This document shows positions 2,649 through 16,432 of a stretch of DNA of 22,191 bases, piece by piece. The translations under genes were made by a program, and so were the position numbers. The notes beneath the pieces were generated by a model, which was given only the letters and a program-made list of their open reading frames with translations, had not been told where the DNA came from and ran no database searches. The first letter of the stretch is position 1. Each line of letters begins with the position of its first letter. Origin of the DNA: a virus; the IMG/VR virus record IMGVR_UViG_3300031275_000003, positions 1-22,191 of that record; one strand, given 5' to 3'.

Positions 2649-4069
2649 TCCAAAACCCTGATCTGTGGCACTATCGAATTTAATCCCCATGCGGTCAATG
2701 CTAAGGTTATCACGCAATCGTCATGCTTGCCCTGCGGTGCCGAATACTGAATGTTACCCGCCTTCGTCTCCGTCTTTTCAAACTCTTTCATTTCATCGAT
2801 CAGCTCAGGGATGCGGGGGTATTTGATTCCCCTGTTGGTCATCGTCACTATAAGATTTTCGATGAGCTGTTCTTTCGATCTTGATGTGAACACGTAACCT
2901 GGACGGTCGCCGTCCTTGTAAACCCTGCATCCCGCCCGTTCTAAGTCTTCTGTAATGGGATCACCTACCCCTGTGCTATCCGGGATCACTTCGGCATTGT
3001 TATATCTTTTGGCGGTTGCCGCAATCTTGCCCCGGACCAACGCCCAAGACTCCTTTTGAAATCTGTCAAAATAAACTATCTGCCCTGTCTGCTTGTCCGC
3101 CACGATTATAACCGTCCAATCCCGATGCTTCGCCAAATCAGAACCCAAGATATATTGTCTTCTCGGAATTGGATCGGCAAACTCCCCGCCAATGCAGGCT
3201 TCGATAAGCTCAGGAGAAATAGCCAAACCTTCGGCCTCCACATCCCAATCATTCATCACAAAGCGGGCATATTTCTTTGGATCAATCTCTCTAAGAATCA
3301 ACAGACTCTCAAGAAAGTCTTTTGGAAGGACATCTGCGTTATCCCAAGTAATAGCCTCAGTCAATCCAAAATCTTTTTGGATTTCGTTGAGAGAAAAAGA
3401 CGGCAAATGGTCAAAGGTTTTTTCATCTCCTTGCATCCCATTAGAAAAAATATTTCTCAAATCTTGCATAGTTTTTGTAGGATTCGGATCAGGAGTTTGC
3501 TCTTTTTTTATGGGATTTTTCCAAAAAGAATAAATCCAATTATGTCCTTTGACATTGGCAGTAATAAGACCGGAATGTAAAGGAAGACCCAAATCTAAAA
3601 ATTCTTGAGAGGGATTCACTTGTCTTCTTAATCTTCCCCAAAGTGTAATAAATTCACTGTTGCTTTTAAGCTCTTCCGCCTGCTCTATAAAAAACCAGCC
3701 GAGATTGAGGTTCTGCAGATTGTTCATCTCTTCCAGATGCCTAAACATAATCCTTGAGCCATTTTTCAGATCAACATTCCTTTGGCTATTAACTTTTTTA
3801 TTTGTATATTTTTCAAAGTCAATCAAGGTGCTATCCCGCAAATCGACAAACTCTTTCCTGAAGATCACACCGAGATTGTTGGGGATCATCTCTGAATAGA
3901 TCATAGCCCTAAGAATCCCGCACATCGTCTTGCCCGTCGCCCACGCCGAGACCATCGCCGGATAGCGGGCGTGGCTCAAAACGAAATCGTTTTGATAGGT
4001 TTTGAGGTTTATCTTCGGTCTTTGACTTGTCTCCGTTTGACTGGATGATGAAGATTGGACCGCTTGCAA
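2639..4069 (-). CDS. terL: Terminase large subunit (packaging ATPase/nuclease)
   Basis: This is the motor that pumps and cuts phage DNA at the portal. The ATPase half shows a Walker A-like SAWATGKT (41-48), with Ser where Gly or Ala is usual, and a Walker B/catalytic segment FFIEQAEE (126-133). The C-terminal nuclease half has the RNase H-like acidic residues in GSDLAKHRDWT (D311), PDSTG (D364) and HDD (450-451). The start is inferred to be TTG at 4069 with an AGGAG SD six bases upstream. This makes a 161-base overlap with terS in another frame, and no later start keeps the Walker motif. A frameshift joining the two frames or a sequencing error cannot be excluded. The 3' end overlaps the portal start. 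Confidence 0.95.
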   Translation of the reverse strand: MQAVQSSSSSQTETSQRPKINLKTYQNDFVLSHARYPAMVSAWATGKTMCGILRAMIYSEMIPNNLGVIFRKEFVDLRDSTLIDFEKYTNKKVNSQRNVDLKNGSRIMFRHLEEMNNLQNLNLGWFFIEQAEELKSNSEFITLWGRLRRQVNPSQEFLDLGLPLHSGLITANVKGHNWIYSFWKNPIKKEQTPDPNPTKTMQDLRNIFSNGMQGDEKTFDHLPSFSLNEIQKDFGLTEAITWDNADVLPKDFLESLLILREIDPKKYARFVMNDWDVEAEGLAISPELIEACIGGEFADPIPRRQYILGSDLAKHRDWTVIIVADKQTGQIVYFDRFQKESWALVRGKIAATAKRYNNAEVIPDSTGVGDPITEDLERAGCRVYKDGDRPGYVFTSRSKEQLIENLIVTMTNRGIKYPRIPELIDEMKEFEKTETKAGNIQYSAPQGKHDDCVITLALTAWGLNSIVPQIRVLEWA

Positions 4070-4388: not shown

Positions 4389-4410
4389 TTGTCTACTCAG
4401 TTAAAATCAA

Positions 4411-4447
4411 AGAAGCCCCAGCGTCCTTCACCATCGCTGGGGCTTCT
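4411..4447 (-). terminator. Perfect 13-bp hairpin, likely minus-strand terminator/attenuator
   Basis: AGAAGCCCCAGCG at 4411-4423 pairs exactly with CGCTGGGGCTTCT at 4435-4447 around an 11-base loop. In the minus direction the stem is followed by TTTGATTTTAA, a moderate U tract; in the plus direction by TTAAAAC, which is weaker. It lies 23 bases before the terS start. It could end transcripts from the upstream operon or act as the terminator half of a regulated leader, because its loop and 3' arm can instead pair with the neighbouring hairpin. Confidence 0.7.
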
Positions 4448-4458
4448 TAAAACAGAAA

Positions 4459-4506
4459 GGACGCCACCTATCTGTATTATTTTTTTACAGAAAAGGATTG
4501 GCGTCC
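4459..4506 (-). ncRNA. Structured 5' leader hairpin upstream of terS
   Basis: On the minus transcript GGACGCCA (4506-4499) pairs with UGGCGUCC (4466-4459). Inside, CUGUA and UACAG form a second five-pair stem around a nine-base A-rich loop. A transcript from the promoter at 4513-4541 would start almost exactly at the 5' arm. The 3' arm with its following UU (GCGUCCUU) is complementary over eight bases to AAGGACGC in the loop and 3' arm of the next hairpin. The two hairpins are therefore partly mutually exclusive, as in attenuators. Other readings are a short phage RNA of about 95 bases ending at the U tract, or a packaging-site structure recognised as DNA. Confidence 0.5.
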
Positions 4507-4512
4507 CGATCC

Positions 4513-4541
4513 TAAATACGTAACTATTTTTTATTTGTCAA
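4513..4541 (-). promoter_or_regulatory. Sigma70-type promoter before the packaging operon
   Basis: On the minus strand a perfect TTGACA (4541-4536) is followed after 17 bases by TATTTA (4518-4513), a weak but acceptable -10. The predicted start is near 4506, at the first base of the leader hairpin. It lies in a 179-base AT-rich gap between the 4568-4768 gene and terS. The strong -35 and poor -10 could mean that an activator is needed. Confidence 0.5.
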
Positions 4542-4567
4542 GAAAAATCTTTCGGCGAAAATGTTTT

Positions 4568-6265: not shown

Positions 6266-6336
6266 CAGAGGCGGAAGGAATTGAACCTTCATTGCGGGAT
6301 TCAAAGCCCCGTGACTTATCTTTAGTCGACACCCCT
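6266..6336 (-). tRNA. tRNA-Gln (anticodon TTG)
   Basis: A full cloverleaf of 71 bases reads on the minus strand. The acceptor stem AGGGGTG/CGCCTCT has seven pairs including two G-U. The D stem is GACT/AGTC. The anticodon stem CGGGG/TCCCG closes the loop CTTTGAA, with anticodon TTG at 6304-6302. The variable loop has four bases, and the T arm GAAGG-TTCAATT-CCTTC is canonical. The discriminator is G, as in many tRNA-Gln, and CCA is not encoded. The D loop (AAAGATA) lacks the usual GG, so the molecule may fold atypically. The first 15 bases overlap the end of the RNA ligase gene, whose stop codon lies in the D arm. Confidence 0.85.
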
Positions 6337-7011: not shown

Positions 7012-7223
7012 ATCTCGCTTCCTCCGATCTTCTCAATTTTTGGGATTTTGATTATCCGTCCACCCTCTTTAAGTTTCAATTTCCCCGCAAGAAACAATCT
7101 ATAATCAGCCATAGGTAATGGATGCAACTTGACATCCCATTTCCTATCTCCGGCTCTCATTTCCCGAAGCTCATTAGCATCAATCACAAACAATTGCCTT
7201 GGTCTTATATATTGTTTTTTCAA
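7008..7223 (-). CDS. Small hypothetical protein coupled to RNA ligase (71 aa)
   Basis: The frame begins at a TTG (7223) after GAGAGCGGGAA and ends with the four-base ATGA overlap into the RNA ligase gene, which argues that it is real. The product is basic and compact, starting (M)KKQYIRPRQLFVIDANELR, with a Gly/Lys-rich C-terminus (LKLKEGGRIIKIPKIEKIG). No family is recognised. The overlap suggests equal translation with the ligase. The exact start is uncertain, since the first ATG would leave under 50 residues. Confidence 0.6.
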   Translation of the reverse strand: MKKQYIRPRQLFVIDANELREMRAGDRKWDVKLHPLPMADYRLFLAGKLKLKEGGRIIKIPKIEKIGGSEI

Positions 7224-7240
7224 TTCCCGCTCTCTTTTTC

Positions 7241-7277
7241 AAGCCCCCGCTTCTTAGGTCGGGGGCTTTTTGTTTTG
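7241..7277 (+). terminator. Strong intrinsic terminator facing the plus direction
   Basis: AAGCCCCCG (7241-7249) and CGGGGGCTT (7260-7268) form a nine-pair GC-rich stem with a ten-base loop, followed in the plus direction by TTTTTGTTTTG. In the minus direction the stem is followed by GAAAAAGAG, with no U tract. All recognised genes here are on the minus strand, so it would stop antisense transcription, or it acts on the minus transcript only as a leader hairpin before the 7008-7223 gene. The surrounding gap 7224-7348 holds no convincing gene. Confidence 0.6.
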
Positions 7278-7348: not shown

Positions 7349-7660
7349 CTATTTTTCCTCATCTTTTCTCCAATCAATAATCGTATCTCGCTTCCCGCTA
7401 TAAATTCGCACGGAGTCAATATATTCATATACAACCACCGTATCCCCACGACACCCATATTTCGTCCCATAAGTCCACCCCTGATAAGGATAAACCAAAT
7501 CAAGCGGGTATTGTTTCCGATAGTATTGCATATTATCAGCTAAAGTCAGAGAAAGTTTCACAACGTTATCAACTCTTTTGTTGACTTGCACGTTAGCCAC
7601 AAAAAACAAAATCCCCATAATAGCAAGACTAATCCAAATCGGCATTTTTTCTTTCTTCAT
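7349..7660 (-). CDS. Small membrane-anchored protein (103 aa)
   Basis: The ATG at 7660 follows GGGAGGAGAA and overlaps the stop of the upstream gene (ATGA). The protein has a short basic N-terminus (MKKEK) and one hydrophobic helix, IWISLAIMGILFFVANVQV (residues about 7-25). A soluble domain of some 75 residues with many Tyr (YPYQGWTYGTKYGC, VVVYEYIDSV) follows. This would place the C-terminal domain outside the cytoplasm. It has no lipobox or signal cleavage site. Its neighbour is also a one-pass membrane protein, so they may act together. A lysis accessory (spanin-like) role is possible but unsupported by motifs. Confidence 0.7.
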   Translation of the reverse strand: MKKEKMPIWISLAIMGILFFVANVQVNKRVDNVVKLSLTLADNMQYYRKQYPLDLVYPYQGWTYGTKYGCRGDTVVVYEYIDSVRIYSGKRDTIIDWRKDEEK

Positions 7661-8535: not shown

Positions 8536-8714
8536 CCAGTCCCGCCTTCCTCATCAGGCCGGGCCGGTTTGATGGTGATTTTGAATTCCCCCCAACGATC
8601 AAGCTCTGTTTTTTGAGTTGGCGTAATGCCATAAATTATTAGCTTGTAATTTTCGTATCCGGTGTATTTTACTGTTTCCCAGATAGGATCGTTTAGCTCA
8701 ACCTCTTCCGCCAT
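8532..8714 (-). CDS. Small acidic hypothetical protein (60 aa)
   Basis: The chosen ATG at 8714 has the SD TTGAGGTCGAAG and overlaps the end of the replication gene by 17 bases; a longer frame to 8822 lies wholly inside that gene and is unlikely. The product reads MAEEVELNDPIWETVKYTGYE with a beta-like centre (NYKLIIYGITPT) and an acidic Gly-rich end (RPDEEGGTG). Function unknown. Confidence 0.6.
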   Translation of the reverse strand: MAEEVELNDPIWETVKYTGYENYKLIIYGITPTQKTELDRWGEFKITIKPARPDEEGGTG

Positions 8715-9537
8715 CTTCGACCTCAAGTTTTTTGGGGAATTTAGCTTGGCAATCTGTGCAATGCCAATAATCACCACAGTCCGCCATTTGTTTATGACAA
8801 CTGAAACATATACCAGATTCACAATATTTAGGTTTTTTCGTCAGATTCATCTTCATAGTCAACTGGTCGAATTGTTTTCTTAACTTTCCCATACTTAGAA
8901 TATTTGTTTTCCAAAAGTCGTCCTTTTGAGACCACTCAATCACTTTGTCAATCTCCTCAAGTGTTCGTTTGTCTTGCTCCACCATTAGTCGAACACCATT
9001 AGCCCAATCATCTAAAGATTTTGGGATTTTCGCTTTTGGATTGTTTTGAAGCATTAAAGATTTAAGTTTCTTTGCTCGTTCGGAAAATTCCGGTTTTGGA
9101 TTTTCCGAACAAGAAGATTTATCTTTACTTAAATTAACTTTACTTAAATTTAACTTAACTTTAGCGGGAGTTGATCTCGACTTACTCTTGAGTAACTCTG
9201 GAGGAGGATCGGGTATTTCTGAGGGAGCTTCACGTTCTTTATTGATTTTTTGATTGGAATTGAACCCTAAGAACTGCATATATTTATGTTCGCTTCCATA
9301 AAGTAATACTAAAGGTGATTTAGCCAGTTCTTGGATGCACTTTTCTATCTTCTTTTTGGTGAAATTTTTTAGATATGGGACTACTACTCCTTTCAAAATG
9401 TCCACGTTTGCTGAAATTTTTCCATCAACATCGAGATGTGGGATACAAAAAGTGAATAAAATTATTGCTTTTTCGGATAATTTTGCCACTTCTTCGTCAA
9501 CAGAAATTGACTTATTTAACATTCTACCTCTGGGCAT
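8698..9537 (-). CDS. Phage replication initiator / replisome organiser with C-terminal zinc ribbon
   Basis: The N-terminal 110 residues match the winged-helix domain of phage replication proteins of the lambda O / DnaD-related type. MPRGRMLNKSISVDEEVAKL is the typical opening, followed by LFTFCIPHLDVDGKI and a basic helix KKKIEKCIQELAKSPLVLLY. A disordered Pro/Ser/Lys linker follows (about 115-155). A second helical part with WANGVRLMVEQDKRTLEEI resembles a DnaD-like helicase-loading region. The last 40 residues form a C4 ribbon (C244, C247, C260, C263). It should bind the phage origin and recruit the host helicase. The start at 9537 has GAGGGAGG directly adjacent, very close spacing; M6 is an alternative. 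No helicase or polymerase gene is present, so host enzymes are probably used. Confidence 0.8.
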   Translation of the reverse strand: MPRGRMLNKSISVDEEVAKLSEKAIILFTFCIPHLDVDGKISANVDILKGVVVPYLKNFTKKKIEKCIQELAKSPLVLLYGSEHKYMQFLGFNSNQKINKEREAPSEIPDPPPELLKSKSRSTPAKVKLNLSKVNLSKDKSSCSENPKPEFSERAKKLKSLMLQNNPKAKIPKSLDDWANGVRLMVEQDKRTLEEIDKVIEWSQKDDFWKTNILSMGKLRKQFDQLTMKMNLTKKPKYCESGICFSCHKQMADCGDYWHCTDCQAKFPKKLEVEDGGRG

Positions 9538-10019: not shown

Positions 10020-10196
10020 TTACTCCTCTCTCCAGATTTTGATTTCCTTAATGTCACCCTCTTCAATTGGCTCAGAAAAAATATAACCTTCTAATTCTCT
10101 TGCATCGTCAAAAGATCGGGTGAGCGTTTCTGATTCGCCTTCACATACCTTAATAGCATCAACTAATTTTGTTTGCCAACGCCATTTTCTCTTCAT
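10020..10196 (-). CDS. Small hypothetical protein (58 aa)
   Basis: This 58-codon frame has AGGAG eight bases before ATG 10196, and its TAA touches the ATG of the next gene. The sequence begins MKRKWRWQTKLVDAIKVCEG, continues with SFDDARELEGYIF and ends with acidic and Ile/Lys alternation (EEGDIKEIKIWREE). Likely a compact alpha/beta protein of unknown role. It is the first gene after the tandem structured RNAs. Confidence 0.6.
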   Translation of the reverse strand: MKRKWRWQTKLVDAIKVCEGESETLTRSFDDARELEGYIFSEPIEEGDIKEIKIWREE

Positions 10197-10291
10197 TTTG
10201 GGAACTCCTGCGCCAAAGCTTCTTCGCTTGTTACTTCATCCGTTCTGCATATGATATAATGGCATCTTTCTTTTCTCCTCTCTTTTCTTCA

Positions 10292-10459
10292 GGCGGTCCG
10301 GGGGATTCGCACCCCAACCAATTAGGGACGGACCCAGCCGGATGGAACCGAGACCCACTCTTGTCCATGTCCAATGTCTCTGTCCTGCTTTCGCTCTTCG
10401 GTGCTTTTCGCATCATCGAAATCTACCCCTGACTAATAGACTTCTCTGTTCAGACCGCC
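10292..10459 (-). ncRNA. Structured RNA element, tandem array member 3
   Basis: A long-range stem joins GGCGGUCUG (10459-10451) to CGGACCGCC (10300-10292), nine pairs with one G-U. Next to the 3' arm is a hairpin GGGG-UGCGAAU-CCCC (10315-10301) that looks like a tRNA T arm. The interior (about 135 bases) has further possible pairing such as GAGAC/GUCUC, but I cannot fix a single fold. It is followed by UGAAGAAAAG. Reading frames crossing it (for example 61 codons at 10231-10416) have no clear protein signal. Element boundaries are inferred. Confidence 0.45.
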
Positions 10460-10472
10460 ATTTCTTTTTTCA

Positions 10473-10534
10473 GGACACCGCCCGCCGGCAATGATTTGGA
10501 TCACAGGAATCACTCTAATTCCAGGCGGTGCACC
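10473..10534 (-). ncRNA. Structured three-stem RNA element, tandem array member 2
   Basis: On the minus transcript a closing stem forms between CACCGCC (10530-10524) and GGCGGUG (10482-10476), extended by a G-U at 10531/10475. Inside are hairpin GGAAU-UAGAGUG-AUUCC (10522-10506) and hairpin UGAU-CCAA-AUCA (10503-10492). UGCCGG lies between the second hairpin and the closing arm. A UGAAAAAAG linker leads to the next element. The order closing stem, hairpin, hairpin, UGCCGG, closing arm is the same as in the elements at 10557-10638 and 10862-10955. Confidence 0.55.
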
Positions 10535-10556
10535 TGAAGTGCTTTCTCCTTTTCTC

Positions 10557-10638
10557 CAAGCCCACCGGCAGTTGGCGAAACTGTAAACTCTCCGCCGCTG
10601 TCCACAGATTTCATTTTGCAGAGAGAACGGCGGGCTTG
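10557..10638 (-). ncRNA. Structured three-way-junction RNA, tandem array member 1
   Basis: The closing stem has eleven pairs between 10638-10628 (CAAGCCCGCCG) and 10567-10557 (CGGUGGGCUUG). The second stem has eight pairs between 10625-10618 (CUCUCUGC) and 10595-10588 (GCGGAGAG). The third is hairpin CAGUU-UCGCC-AACUG at 10583-10569. The two imperfect positions are G-U on the minus strand but A-C on the plus strand, which supports transcription in the gene direction. UGCCGG overlaps the junction with the closing arm; GGAGAAAAGG follows. A 34-codon frame (10510-10614) crosses the element and is probably chance. Confidence 0.6.
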
Positions 10639-10642
10639 AGGG

Positions 10643-10834
10643 TTAATCATTAAGGTCTAATATCTGTTCTGCTAATTCCATAAATTTACGACCAAGTTCT
10701 TTAACCATTTTTCGTTTTAATTCCTCTTCAGATAAGACATCCCAAAAAGCACAAGAAAGTGCCATATATCGACATTGTAAGGTTAAAAACTTCTCTTTTC
10801 TTTTTTGTAACAACTCTTCATTTCCCATTTTCAT
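10643..10834 (-). CDS. Small hypothetical protein between structured RNAs (63 aa)
   Basis: Two in-frame ATGs are possible. The second (10828) has the better spacing to GCGGAAAGG and would give 61 residues. The protein is helical and charged (NEELLQKRKEKFLTLQCRYMALSCAFWDVL, then KRKMVKELGRKFMELAEQIL). No motif recognised. It is flanked on both sides by structured RNA elements, and its SD region can pair with the 3' arm of the upstream element, so its translation may be controlled by it. Confidence 0.6.
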   Translation of the reverse strand: MKMGNEELLQKRKEKFLTLQCRYMALSCAFWDVLSEEELKRKMVKELGRKFMELAEQILDLND

Positions 10835-10861: not shown

Positions 10862-10955
10862 GGGGTTCGCCGGCAAAGTTTCCCTTGACTTGCTCCTACC
10901 ATAGACGACAGCTCCTCGTCTATATACCATTAGGTTGATCGCCACAGCGAACCCC
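10862..10955 (-). ncRNA. Structured three-way-junction RNA before the 10643-10834 gene
   Basis: The closing stem has nine perfect pairs: GGGGUUCGC (10955-10947) with GCGAACCCC (10870-10862). Hairpin AUAGACGA/UCGUCUAU (10923-10916 with 10908-10901) is eight perfect pairs with a seven-base loop. Hairpin GCAAGU/ACUUUGC (10893-10888 with 10879-10873) has one bulge. UGCCGG joins the last hairpin to the closing arm. Downstream UGCUGAAAAAUC leads to GGGGGCGGAAAGG and the ATG. The CCCC of the closing arm can alternatively pair with that GGGGG (10847-10843) beside the SD. It fills the 133-base gap between two genes. No riboswitch class is recognised. Confidence 0.65.
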
Positions 10956-14698: not shown

Positions 14699-15292
14699 TT
14701 AGCTCTCCTTTGGTTCTGGGAGTTCGGGGCGGAATTCAAAGGTGATTCGATTTAAAAGTATAAAGTCTGGATGGCAATTAGAACCTGCAAGCCCTACCTT
14801 ATGTTGCCATGATCCATGGGCACACATTTTCCCCTCTGTTTTTTCGCAATGGCTGAAAACCCCGATATGTTTTTCTTTGAAATCTTTATCCTTCCAGCTT
14901 ATCACGTCTCCCCGCTTCAATCCTCCCTCTGGCTTGCCATTCTTGTCATAGGGGACTTCATCGTCATAGGGGGCTTCATCTTTAACCGTAGGCTCGGTCA
15001 CGGTGAAAAGAGCGGGCTTGACCAGTTGCTCCAGTGCCTCGATGCGGGCCTTGAGTCCATTTCGTCCCGCAACCTCTTTTTGCAAATCCCGAATGTCCTT
15101 ACTATGCCCCATTAGCCAATCATAGCGATATTTTTCATCTTTATTTAGCTCCTGGCGCTCGGATTCAATTGCCTCAAGGCGGGCAATAATCTCTTTAACA
15201 AATTCCATAAAGAACGTCTCAGCCGTATTGTCCTGAATTTTGAAACATACATCATAAAACTTTTTCGCCTTTTCTTCTAAAGTATTTTCCAT
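14699..15292 (-). CDS. Coiled-coil protein with C-terminal beta domain (197 aa)
   Basis: The start has the SD GCGAGGTTTAG. Residues 1-95 are helical with heptads (EFVKEIIARLEAIESERQEL, DIRDLQKEVAGRNGL, RIEALEQLV). A Pro/Asp linker with a short repeat (APYDDEVPYDKNG) leads to a domain with GDVISWKDKDFKEKHIGVF, SHCEKTEGKMCAHGSW and ITFEFRPELPEP, rich in His and Cys, perhaps a small metal-bound or SH3-like fold. Function unknown. It follows the structured leader at 15319-15388. Confidence 0.65.
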   Translation of the reverse strand: MENTLEEKAKKFYDVCFKIQDNTAETFFMEFVKEIIARLEAIESERQELNKDEKYRYDWLMGHSKDIRDLQKEVAGRNGLKARIEALEQLVKPALFTVTEPTVKDEAPYDDEVPYDKNGKPEGGLKRGDVISWKDKDFKEKHIGVFSHCEKTEGKMCAHGSWQHKVGLAGSNCHPDFILLNRITFEFRPELPEPKES

Positions 15293-15318
15293 CTAAACCT
15301 CGCTTTCTAATTTACCCC

Positions 15319-15388
15319 GGCGGAGCGGGAAATTGCTTATAGCATTTGATAAATTCAAGTTCTATATACTTATTACTTCCGCTCCGCC
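15319..15388 (-). ncRNA. Long-stem structured leader before the 14699-15292 gene
   Basis: GGCGGAGCGG (15319-15328) and CCGCTCCGCC (15379-15388) form ten perfect GC-rich pairs around a 50-base AT-rich interior. Within it three small hairpins are possible: GCT/AGC, TTGA/TCAA and AAGT/ACTT. The gap 15293-15401 carries no gene. It has no U tract after the stem in either direction, so it is not a typical terminator. The low-GC interior and high-GC stem are in sharp contrast. Confidence 0.5.
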
Positions 15389-15401
15389 AAGGGCTTCTGG
15401 A

Positions 15402-15536
15402 TCAGAAGGAGTCATCATGATGGTCAAAGAGTGAAAGTCCTCCTTTCCAGATTTTTTGTCGAATGCACTCTTTCATAAAAGCAAACACAAGAGACAAAAC
15501 CCAGAAACTTACTATCATTTCCAATATCTTCAACAT
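15402..15536 (-). CDS. Small membrane protein (44 aa)
   Basis: The ATG at 15536 has a perfect SD (AAAGGAGGTTTGGCA); the in-frame extension to 15599 lacks one. One hydrophobic helix (ILEMIVSFWVLSLVFAF) is followed by a basic turn and an acidic tail with His/Asp (FDHHDDSF). N-out/C-in by the positive-inside rule. Too small to assign; could be a holin-like or superinfection-related membrane peptide. Confidence 0.6.
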   Translation of the reverse strand: MLKILEMIVSFWVLSLVFAFMKECIRQKIWKGGLSLFDHHDDSF

Positions 15537-15571
15537 TGCCAAACCTCCTTTCCGATCCAGTCCGGCACCAC

Positions 15572-15697
15572 CTACGAAATGATAAAAATGACAATCCACT
15601 TAATCAGATTAGCCAGCCAAGCGGTAGGCACCGGAATACCGATGGGAGCGAACAATCCCAAAATCGGAGTTCCCATCATAGCCAAGAATCCTAACAA
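15572..15697 (-). CDS. Small hydrophobic protein (41 aa), TTG start
   Basis: A TTG at 15697 follows GGGGGTGATGAAAG, a strong SD. The product is almost wholly hydrophobic: two helices, LGFLAMMGTPILGLFAPIGI and the C-terminal LANLIKWIVIFIIS, around a Pro-rich turn. A two-helix hairpin of this type resembles small holins in outline only. It lies 35 bases upstream of another small membrane gene. Confidence 0.55.
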   Translation of the reverse strand: MLGFLAMMGTPILGLFAPIGIPVPTAWLANLIKWIVIFIIS

Positions 15698-15970: not shown

Positions 15971-15992
15971 ATTAGCCTTTTCTCCGTTTTAT

Positions 15993-16042
15993 TGCCCCCG
16001 GCAGACTCGACAAGGGAGGGACAGGCCGGTCTGCCAGGAGCA
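15993..16042 (-). ncRNA. Compact two-stem RNA element with CCGGCA
   Basis: The closing stem UGCUCC (16042-16037) pairs with GGGGCA (15998-15993), including one G-U on the minus strand. The inner stem GGCAGAC/GUCUGCC (16035-16029 with 16006-16000) has seven perfect pairs. CCGGCA (plus strand 15998-16003) is at the junction, as in the elements near 10.5-10.9 kb. The element precedes the SD of the 15719-15970 gene. Confidence 0.5.
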
Positions 16043-16074
16043 CCCTTTCCTTGTTTTAGAGGGAGGAAAAGGGT
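16042..16074. other. Stable hairpin after the 16082-16432 gene
   Basis: ACCCTTTCC (16042-16050) pairs with GGAAAAGGGT (16065-16074) with one bulged base. It sits a few bases past the stop of the 16082-16432 gene and next to the two-stem element. It has no clear U tract, so it may protect or space transcripts rather than end them. Confidence 0.4.
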
Positions 16075-16081
16075 AAACCAA

Positions 16082-16432
16082 TTATGGAATACTTTTCAAG
16101 ATTTGTTTTAACGCCCAATACTCTGGATTAAAAAACGCCCATATAGTTTCAGGGAAATGAAAGAAAATAATTGTCCAATAGATAGCTATAAATATTCCGA
16201 TGAAAGCTAATAGTAGATAAGCTATCTCATCCCAGTCAGACTCTTGGATTTTATGATGAACTTTAATACAAAATTTTACAAAAATCCATGTCACAATTCC
16301 TAAAACCATATATTGGATTATATCAGTTATACCACTTAGGGGAGCCTGTTTTAATAAAACACTCCAAAGATATTCACAGGTTACCCCTAACTTTTCAGCC
16401 ATCTTTTCTAAAACCGGGGCAATTTGTTCCAT
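16082..16432 (-). CDS. Phage membrane protein with 2-3 helices (116 aa)
   Basis: The ATG at 16432 has GGGAG seven bases upstream; a TTG two codons earlier is less likely. After an amphipathic N-terminus (MEQIAPVLEKMAEKLGVTCEYLW, split here by my reading at residue 20) come hydrophobic stretches: IQYMVLGIVTWIFVKFCI, then IAYLLLAFIGIFIAIYW and IIFFHFPETIWAFF. The opening with KLGVT-x-EYLW-x-VLLKQAP is a pattern I associate with conserved hypothetical membrane proteins of phages. A holin role is possible because no other candidate of this size is present, but there is no lysin nearby to support it. Confidence 0.65.
   Translation of the reverse strand: MEQIAPVLEKMAEKLGVTCEYLWSVLLKQAPLSGITDIIQYMVLGIVTWIFVKFCIKVHHKIQESDWDEIAYLLLAFIGIFIAIYWTIIFFHFPETIWAFFNPEYWALKQILKSIP

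Follow-up and report, generated by a model that had tools for sequence, protein, structure and literature searches.

Intergenic mRNA structures are an already known kind of element in phages, and the four elements described here (E1 to E4) are an unproven addition to it. Each intergenic RNase III site of the T7 early mRNA is one irregular hairpin of ~60 nt, and a site of the T7 type offers nearly continuous duplex over about two helical turns. E1 to E4 resemble these sites as irregular stems that would lie between co-transcribed cistrons of a phage operon, and none of them is a terminator. Unlike the T7 sites, the elements are branched domains, with a UGCCGG motif common to E2 to E4. Duplex in the array consists of closing stems of 9-12 pairs and inner stems of 4-10 pairs, and cleavage would be hypothetical here. 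With Rho-independent terminators and attenuators the elements share a GC-rich stem between genes, but their interiors measure 35-150 nt and A/G-rich sequence follows instead of a U tract. Like the phage-borne non-coding RNA motifs in Rfam, they are compact multi-hairpin non-coding domains in a phage. The likeness to tRNA lies in the 7-bp closing stem of E1 with a T-arm-like hairpin beside it, and in a canonical T-arm in a related contig, whereas a proper D-arm, a valid anticodon loop and CCA are absent.

Genomic setting and layout of the elements

The analyzed DNA is an IMG/VR virus record of an uncultured phage, and the window is the whole of its 22,191 bases. Nearly all window genes are encoded by the minus strand, among them a DnaD-like replication gene, a terminase and a gene which, by reading alone, we take to be portal-like; the minus strand is also the coding strand for the array region. 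Nowhere else in the replication part of the operon is there so long a stretch without an evident gene as the interval from E3 to E1, which is bounded by a 63-aa ORF (10643-10834) and a 58-aa ORF (10020-10196), and all genes flanking the array have the same strand. The minus strand of the array was found to carry neither a promoter-like nor a terminator-like site. In minus-strand order, the features are:

10862-10955, minus strand: E4, closing stem of 11 pairs, one of them U-G (GGGGUUCGCUG/CGGCGAACCCC)
10643-10834, minus strand: 63-aa ORF between E4 and E3, belonging to no family
10556-10639, minus strand: E3, closing stem of 12 pairs (UCAAGCCCGCCG/CGGUGGGCUUGG)
10532-10555, minus strand: E3/E2 linker, purine-rich (AGAAAAGGAGAAAGCACUUCAGGU)
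10475-10531, minus strand: E2, closing stem GCACCGCCUG/CGGGCGGUGU, hairpins GGAAU..AUUCC and UGAU-CCAA-AUCA, then UUGCCGG
10460-10474, minus strand: E2/E1 linker, A-rich (CCUGAAAAAAGAAAU)
10292-10459, minus strand: E1, closing stem GGCGGUCUG/CGGACCGCC enclosing about 150 nt with several small hairpins
10258-10291, minus strand: purine-rich linker with GAGGAG and an AUG at 10265 (9-codon ORF MPLYHMQNG)
8698-9537, minus strand: DnaD-like replication initiation gene, downstream of the array and on its strand

A preliminary description had placed three consecutive closing stems in this region, separated by linkers. The stems were found on the minus strand, with 9-12 pairs each, and the linkers are present as purine-rich stretches. 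The count of three was too low, as a fourth element, E4, upstream of the 63-aa ORF, had been missed. The interior of E4 consists of a hairpin (AUAGACGA-GGAGCUG-UCGUCUAU), a weak second hairpin and then UUUGCCGG, and its 3′ end lies about 28 nt ahead of the ATG of the gene at 10643-10834. E3 encloses the hairpins CUCUCUGC..GCGGAGAG and CAGUU-UCGCC-AACUG, followed by CUGCCGG. No recognizable gene start follows E3 or E2; the linker between them contains a Shine–Dalgarno-like AAGGAG without an ATG behind it, and in a fold of the whole region part of this linker may extend the E2 stem via UUCAGG/CCUGAA. E1 is larger than, and different from, E2 to E4, and its last hairpin, GGGG-UGCGAAU-CCCC, adjoins the 3′ arm. 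Behind E1, the stretch at 10258-10291 carries a strong Shine–Dalgarno sequence, GAGGAG, yet the ATG behind it opens only the 9-codon ORF, which may encode a leader peptide or be what is left of a gene.

UGCCGG stands at the 5′ side of the 3′ closing arm in E2 and E3, and CCGG does so in E1, as had been noticed before; UGCCGG is found at the same place in E4. E2 to E4 share TGCCG at one offset; when the interiors were shuffled 20,000 times, a 5-mer common to all three at this position arose in 16 cases (P ~8e-4), in a post hoc test made after the motif was noticed. The fetched phage DNA (~0.67 Mb, both strands) contains 412 TGCCGG sites, and in a ranking by adjacency to a closing stem E3 and E4 come first and second among them; TGCCGG sites in general are not clearly better than control hexamers in this respect. 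Outside the motif, E2 to E4 do not align. Probably, E2, E3, and E4 have one architecture, i.e., closing stem, hairpin, hairpin, (U)GCCGG and closing arm. E1 lacks this layout of hairpin, hairpin and (U)GCCGG and is a separate element. The three elements of the earlier description do not form one class as presented there: E2 and E3 resemble each other and E4, and E1 does not.

Stems, folding energy and wobble pairs

In 10280-10645 the highest-scoring chain of non-overlapping stems has a score of 76.5, which was reached by none of 1000 dinucleotide shuffles, and a set of three stems was present in 9 of 1000. For the gap containing E4, the observed score was reached by 1 of 300 shuffles. The folding energies of the single elements are only modestly below those of shuffles on the minus strand (z -1.9 to -2.5), with values close to that of the window's own tRNA. 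On the plus strand E1, E3, and E4 have energies at least as extreme, with E2 as the exception. Because the plus strand folds about as strongly, folding energy cannot tell the strand. Within a 461-nt context, the minus-strand stem probabilities are 0.99 for E1, 0.64 for E3 and 0.33 for E2, the low values of E2 and E3 being caused by competing folds; on the plus strand most pairs have a probability of ~0.95 in context. As sequence features the stems are real; whether those of E2 and E3 prevail in the RNA is uncertain. Arm switching between E2 and E1, which both contain GGCGGU/ACCGCC, was considered and rejected, with cross pairs at a probability of at most 0.01.

As initially reported, the wobble within each of the three stems reads as G-U on the minus strand and as A-C on the plus. 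The same holds for E4, and there is one wobble per stem. This direction agrees with the gene strand, which is weak by itself. It had been presented as covariation-like behavior, an argument that is not supported and comes down to G-U pairs that all face the same way, which is weak evidence: if either wobble direction is equally likely, four stems would agree in 1 of 8 cases by chance. No pair demonstrably covaries, because no homologue of E1 to E4 occurs in the data reached. What remains of the proposed selection for RNA structure is an array of structured elements, based on stems beyond chance and a shared motif; the covariation part is not supported.

Searches for known families and for relatives

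The absence of a recognizable known class agrees with a search of Rfam 15, in which no family fits. At the gathering threshold only tRNA-Gln (6266-6336) was found in the window, and at E 10 the best match in the array region had an E-value of 0.61 (14.5 of 45 bits), none being credible. The related contigs L002 and L055 gave nothing credible at the gathering threshold or at E 10 either.

DNA similarity searches of 50,697 phage genomes returned chance matches only, of ~27-33 bases at E 0.8, and no homologue of E1 to E4 was present in the relatives recovered from IMG/VR. These relatives were sought through several proteins. The 63-aa neighbor protein gave none, a 257-aa protein gave only L002, the terminase gave 46 loci of which 0 carried E1 to E4, and the DnaD-like protein added five further contigs, with L055 as the informative one. 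L002 is a contig of 40.8 kb, in which the 257-aa gene has 72% and the DnaD-like gene 53% identity. Between these two genes it contains closing-stem elements at 7084-7180, 7196-7275, and 7510-7601, unrelated in sequence to E1 to E4. L002 additionally has a duplicated leader element (3304-3425 and 3624-3757, 73% identical; GCCTCCTTGCTrTCGGTGCG.. then CCAGyGGAGCGGGT..ACCCGCTCGGCTG), each copy standing before a gene and ending ~22-26 nt ahead of the start codon. The two genes differ, and one of them is presumably HNH-endonuclease-like, by reading. The closing stems of the copies are kept, with one C-G to U-G change, and the interiors differ. The 20-mer of this duplicate was found in no other viral contig searched.

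A 10-bp closing stem, AUGCCGACCG/CGGUCGGCAU, is common to L055 (2184-2253) and L002 (7510-7601), with unrelated interiors. Inside it, the L055 element has a D-arm-like GCUC..GAGC. Several elements of L002 and L055 end 15-33 nt ahead of a start codon. The pairs in the relatives suggest closing stems that are kept and interiors that are replaced. None of these elements is homologous in sequence to E1 to E4, and they indicate only that the same phage group sets closing-stem elements between operon genes. The L002/L055 closing-stem pattern was also looked for in cellular genomes, where the 37 stretches obtained, mostly from GC-rich genomes, were chance-like and were discarded. Among the hits, several Frigoribacterium contigs (L068-L070, L076, L079-L081, L085) match ATGCCGACCGT..CGGTCGGCAT, spanning 73 or 74 bases around interiors that differ; perhaps these matches are a repeat array or CRISPR arrays.

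Interpretation of the array

The four elements are tentatively read as cis-acting structured segments of the polycistronic mRNA of the phage's replication operon, a reading to which a probability of roughly 0.42 is assigned. The closing stems would form domains between cistrons, followed by purine-rich single-stranded stretches. In their most likely role, the elements would punctuate the mRNA by setting processing sites, stability and translation of each segment, with an action comparable to that of the T7 intergenic RNase III stems. We infer that the array is transcribed and processed and that it affects translation. The cis-acting reading is favored because no terminator-like or promoter-like site was found on the minus strand of the array and because several elements of the relatives directly precede ribosome-binding sites. 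It also draws on the stem chain and the E4 gap score beyond chance, the motif shared by E2 to E4 and the single strand of the flanking genes. Against it stand the lack of homologues of E1 to E4, the modest z values (about -2) on both strands, the fold competition of E2 and E3 and the lack of a recognizable gene start behind these two. The array lies between same-strand genes without a promoter-like or terminator-like site, and three ORFs within it may be genes:

10510-10650, minus strand: ORF1, 46 aa, rival coding reading of E3
10433-10513, minus strand: ORF2, 26 aa, joined to ORF1 by a GUGA overlap, rival coding reading of E2
10231-10416, minus strand: ORF3, 61 aa, with a Shine–Dalgarno-like AGGGG 9 nt before its AUG, rival coding reading of E1

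It is unlikely that the region is ordinary coding DNA, in which these would be three overlapping or coupled small genes and the stems by-products of GC-rich sequence. The start of ORF1 overlaps the stop of the gene at 10643-10834 (AUGAUUAA); with the GUGA overlap and the Shine–Dalgarno sequence ahead of ORF3 this start and stop arrangement speaks for genes, as does the tiling of 10231-10650 by the three ORFs with gaps of at most 34 nt, as elsewhere in this compact genome. Their codon scores of 0.03, -0.005, and -0.005 (stop codons excluded), however, fit coding and non-coding sequence about equally, and random sequence of the same composition yields ORFs of such lengths at 0.4-2.6 per region. 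ORF1 to ORF3 have no relative in Pfam or PHROGs, and ORF1 and ORF3 have none in phage genomes. Rather improbable is an explanation by GC-rich DNA palindromes or chance, i.e., protein-binding sites or composition without any RNA. The four arms of E1 and E2 all consist of GGCGGT and account for 4 of its 15 copies in the window, and plus-strand folds are as extreme as minus-strand folds. The stem chain that no shuffle reached argues against this explanation, as do the G-U wobble of all four stems on the coding strand and the spans of 55-168 bp, which are long for an operator. That the elements are separate trans-acting small RNAs or a processed sRNA array is the least probable of the explanations weighed here: they are discrete compact domains with linkers between them, but the minus strand offers no promoter-like site and no terminator within the array. 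In addition, the analogous elements of the relatives stand directly before start codons, and cis-acting intergenic mRNA elements are favored over free sRNAs for this reason.

For E1, and perhaps others, descent from a tRNA was also weighed, in the form of a tRNA or tRNA-like domain that decayed, was retained between genes and is possibly cut by RNase P, and it is considered very doubtful. E1 has an acceptor-like 7-bp stem, GGCGGUC/GACCGCC, and a T-arm-like GGGG-UGCGAAU-CCCC, a weak resemblance, and ARAGORN, with introns allowed and the threshold at 80%, reads 10459-10291 as tRNA-Pro with a 100-nt insertion; at the 80% setting it makes 8 calls in 200 shuffles as well. L002 bears a canonical T-arm, GCAGG-UUCAAAU-CCUGU, on the closing stem at 7510-7601; this type of T-arm pattern has only three matches in the fetched DNA, another of which is a true tRNA. 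The Rfam tRNA model rejects E1 even at E 10, and likewise the elements of the relatives, and neither it nor ARAGORN at default settings places a tRNA in the array. In E1 the T-stem is one nucleotide out of register, hardly any D-arm is present and there is no U33; E2 to E4 have no T-arm. The elements at 7510-7601 in L002 and 2184-2253 in L055 are possibly two differently decayed tRNAs. Quite improbable as well is the proposal of a new RNA class with E2 to E4 as its copies. Such a class would be built as a three-way junction whose stems vary and whose (U)GCCGG strand is fixed, and would have been amplified in tandem through the replication operon, with stems kept and interiors turning over. The latter part is proposed because the duplicated pair in L002 and the pair shared by L002 and L055 suggest it for neighboring elements. 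If a true RNA class were involved, the operons of uncultured phages would be punctuated by numerous private structured RNAs, whose turnover would be too fast for homology-based RNA discovery to catch them. An intrinsic terminator was rejected as a candidate, as the minus strand of the array contains no short-loop GC-rich stem with a U run.

Other structured sites

Two further regions on the minus strand, 15226-15651 and 15985-16085, are strongly structured (z -4.3 and -4.9). The first, which includes a stem CCTTGGCGGAGCGG/CCGCTCCGCCGGGG at 15315-15392, has a stem chain stronger than that of E1 to E3, as no other part of the window does: of 364 overlapping stretches of 366 nt, the 2 with a higher chain score both lie at ~15226-15651. 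A recurring module, composed of a TTGACA promoter-like box, a closing stem with an inner hairpin and a strong terminator, was observed in the window and in several related phages, at the following sites:

4389-4551, minus strand of the window: module directly upstream of the terminase genes, z -7.3
4042-4186 in L050: module
222-366 in L061: module
6721-6836 in L004: module
4427-4565 in L007: possible module

The stems of this module differ yet pair (GAAGGGUCAGU/ACUGACCCUUC, AAGGGACA/UGUCCCUU, and GGACGCC/GGCGUCC), and its first stem is poorly aligned by MAFFT/RNAalifold. The module is reminiscent of a late-operon leader of the lambda pR′ type, with a terminator that would be overcome by antitermination.
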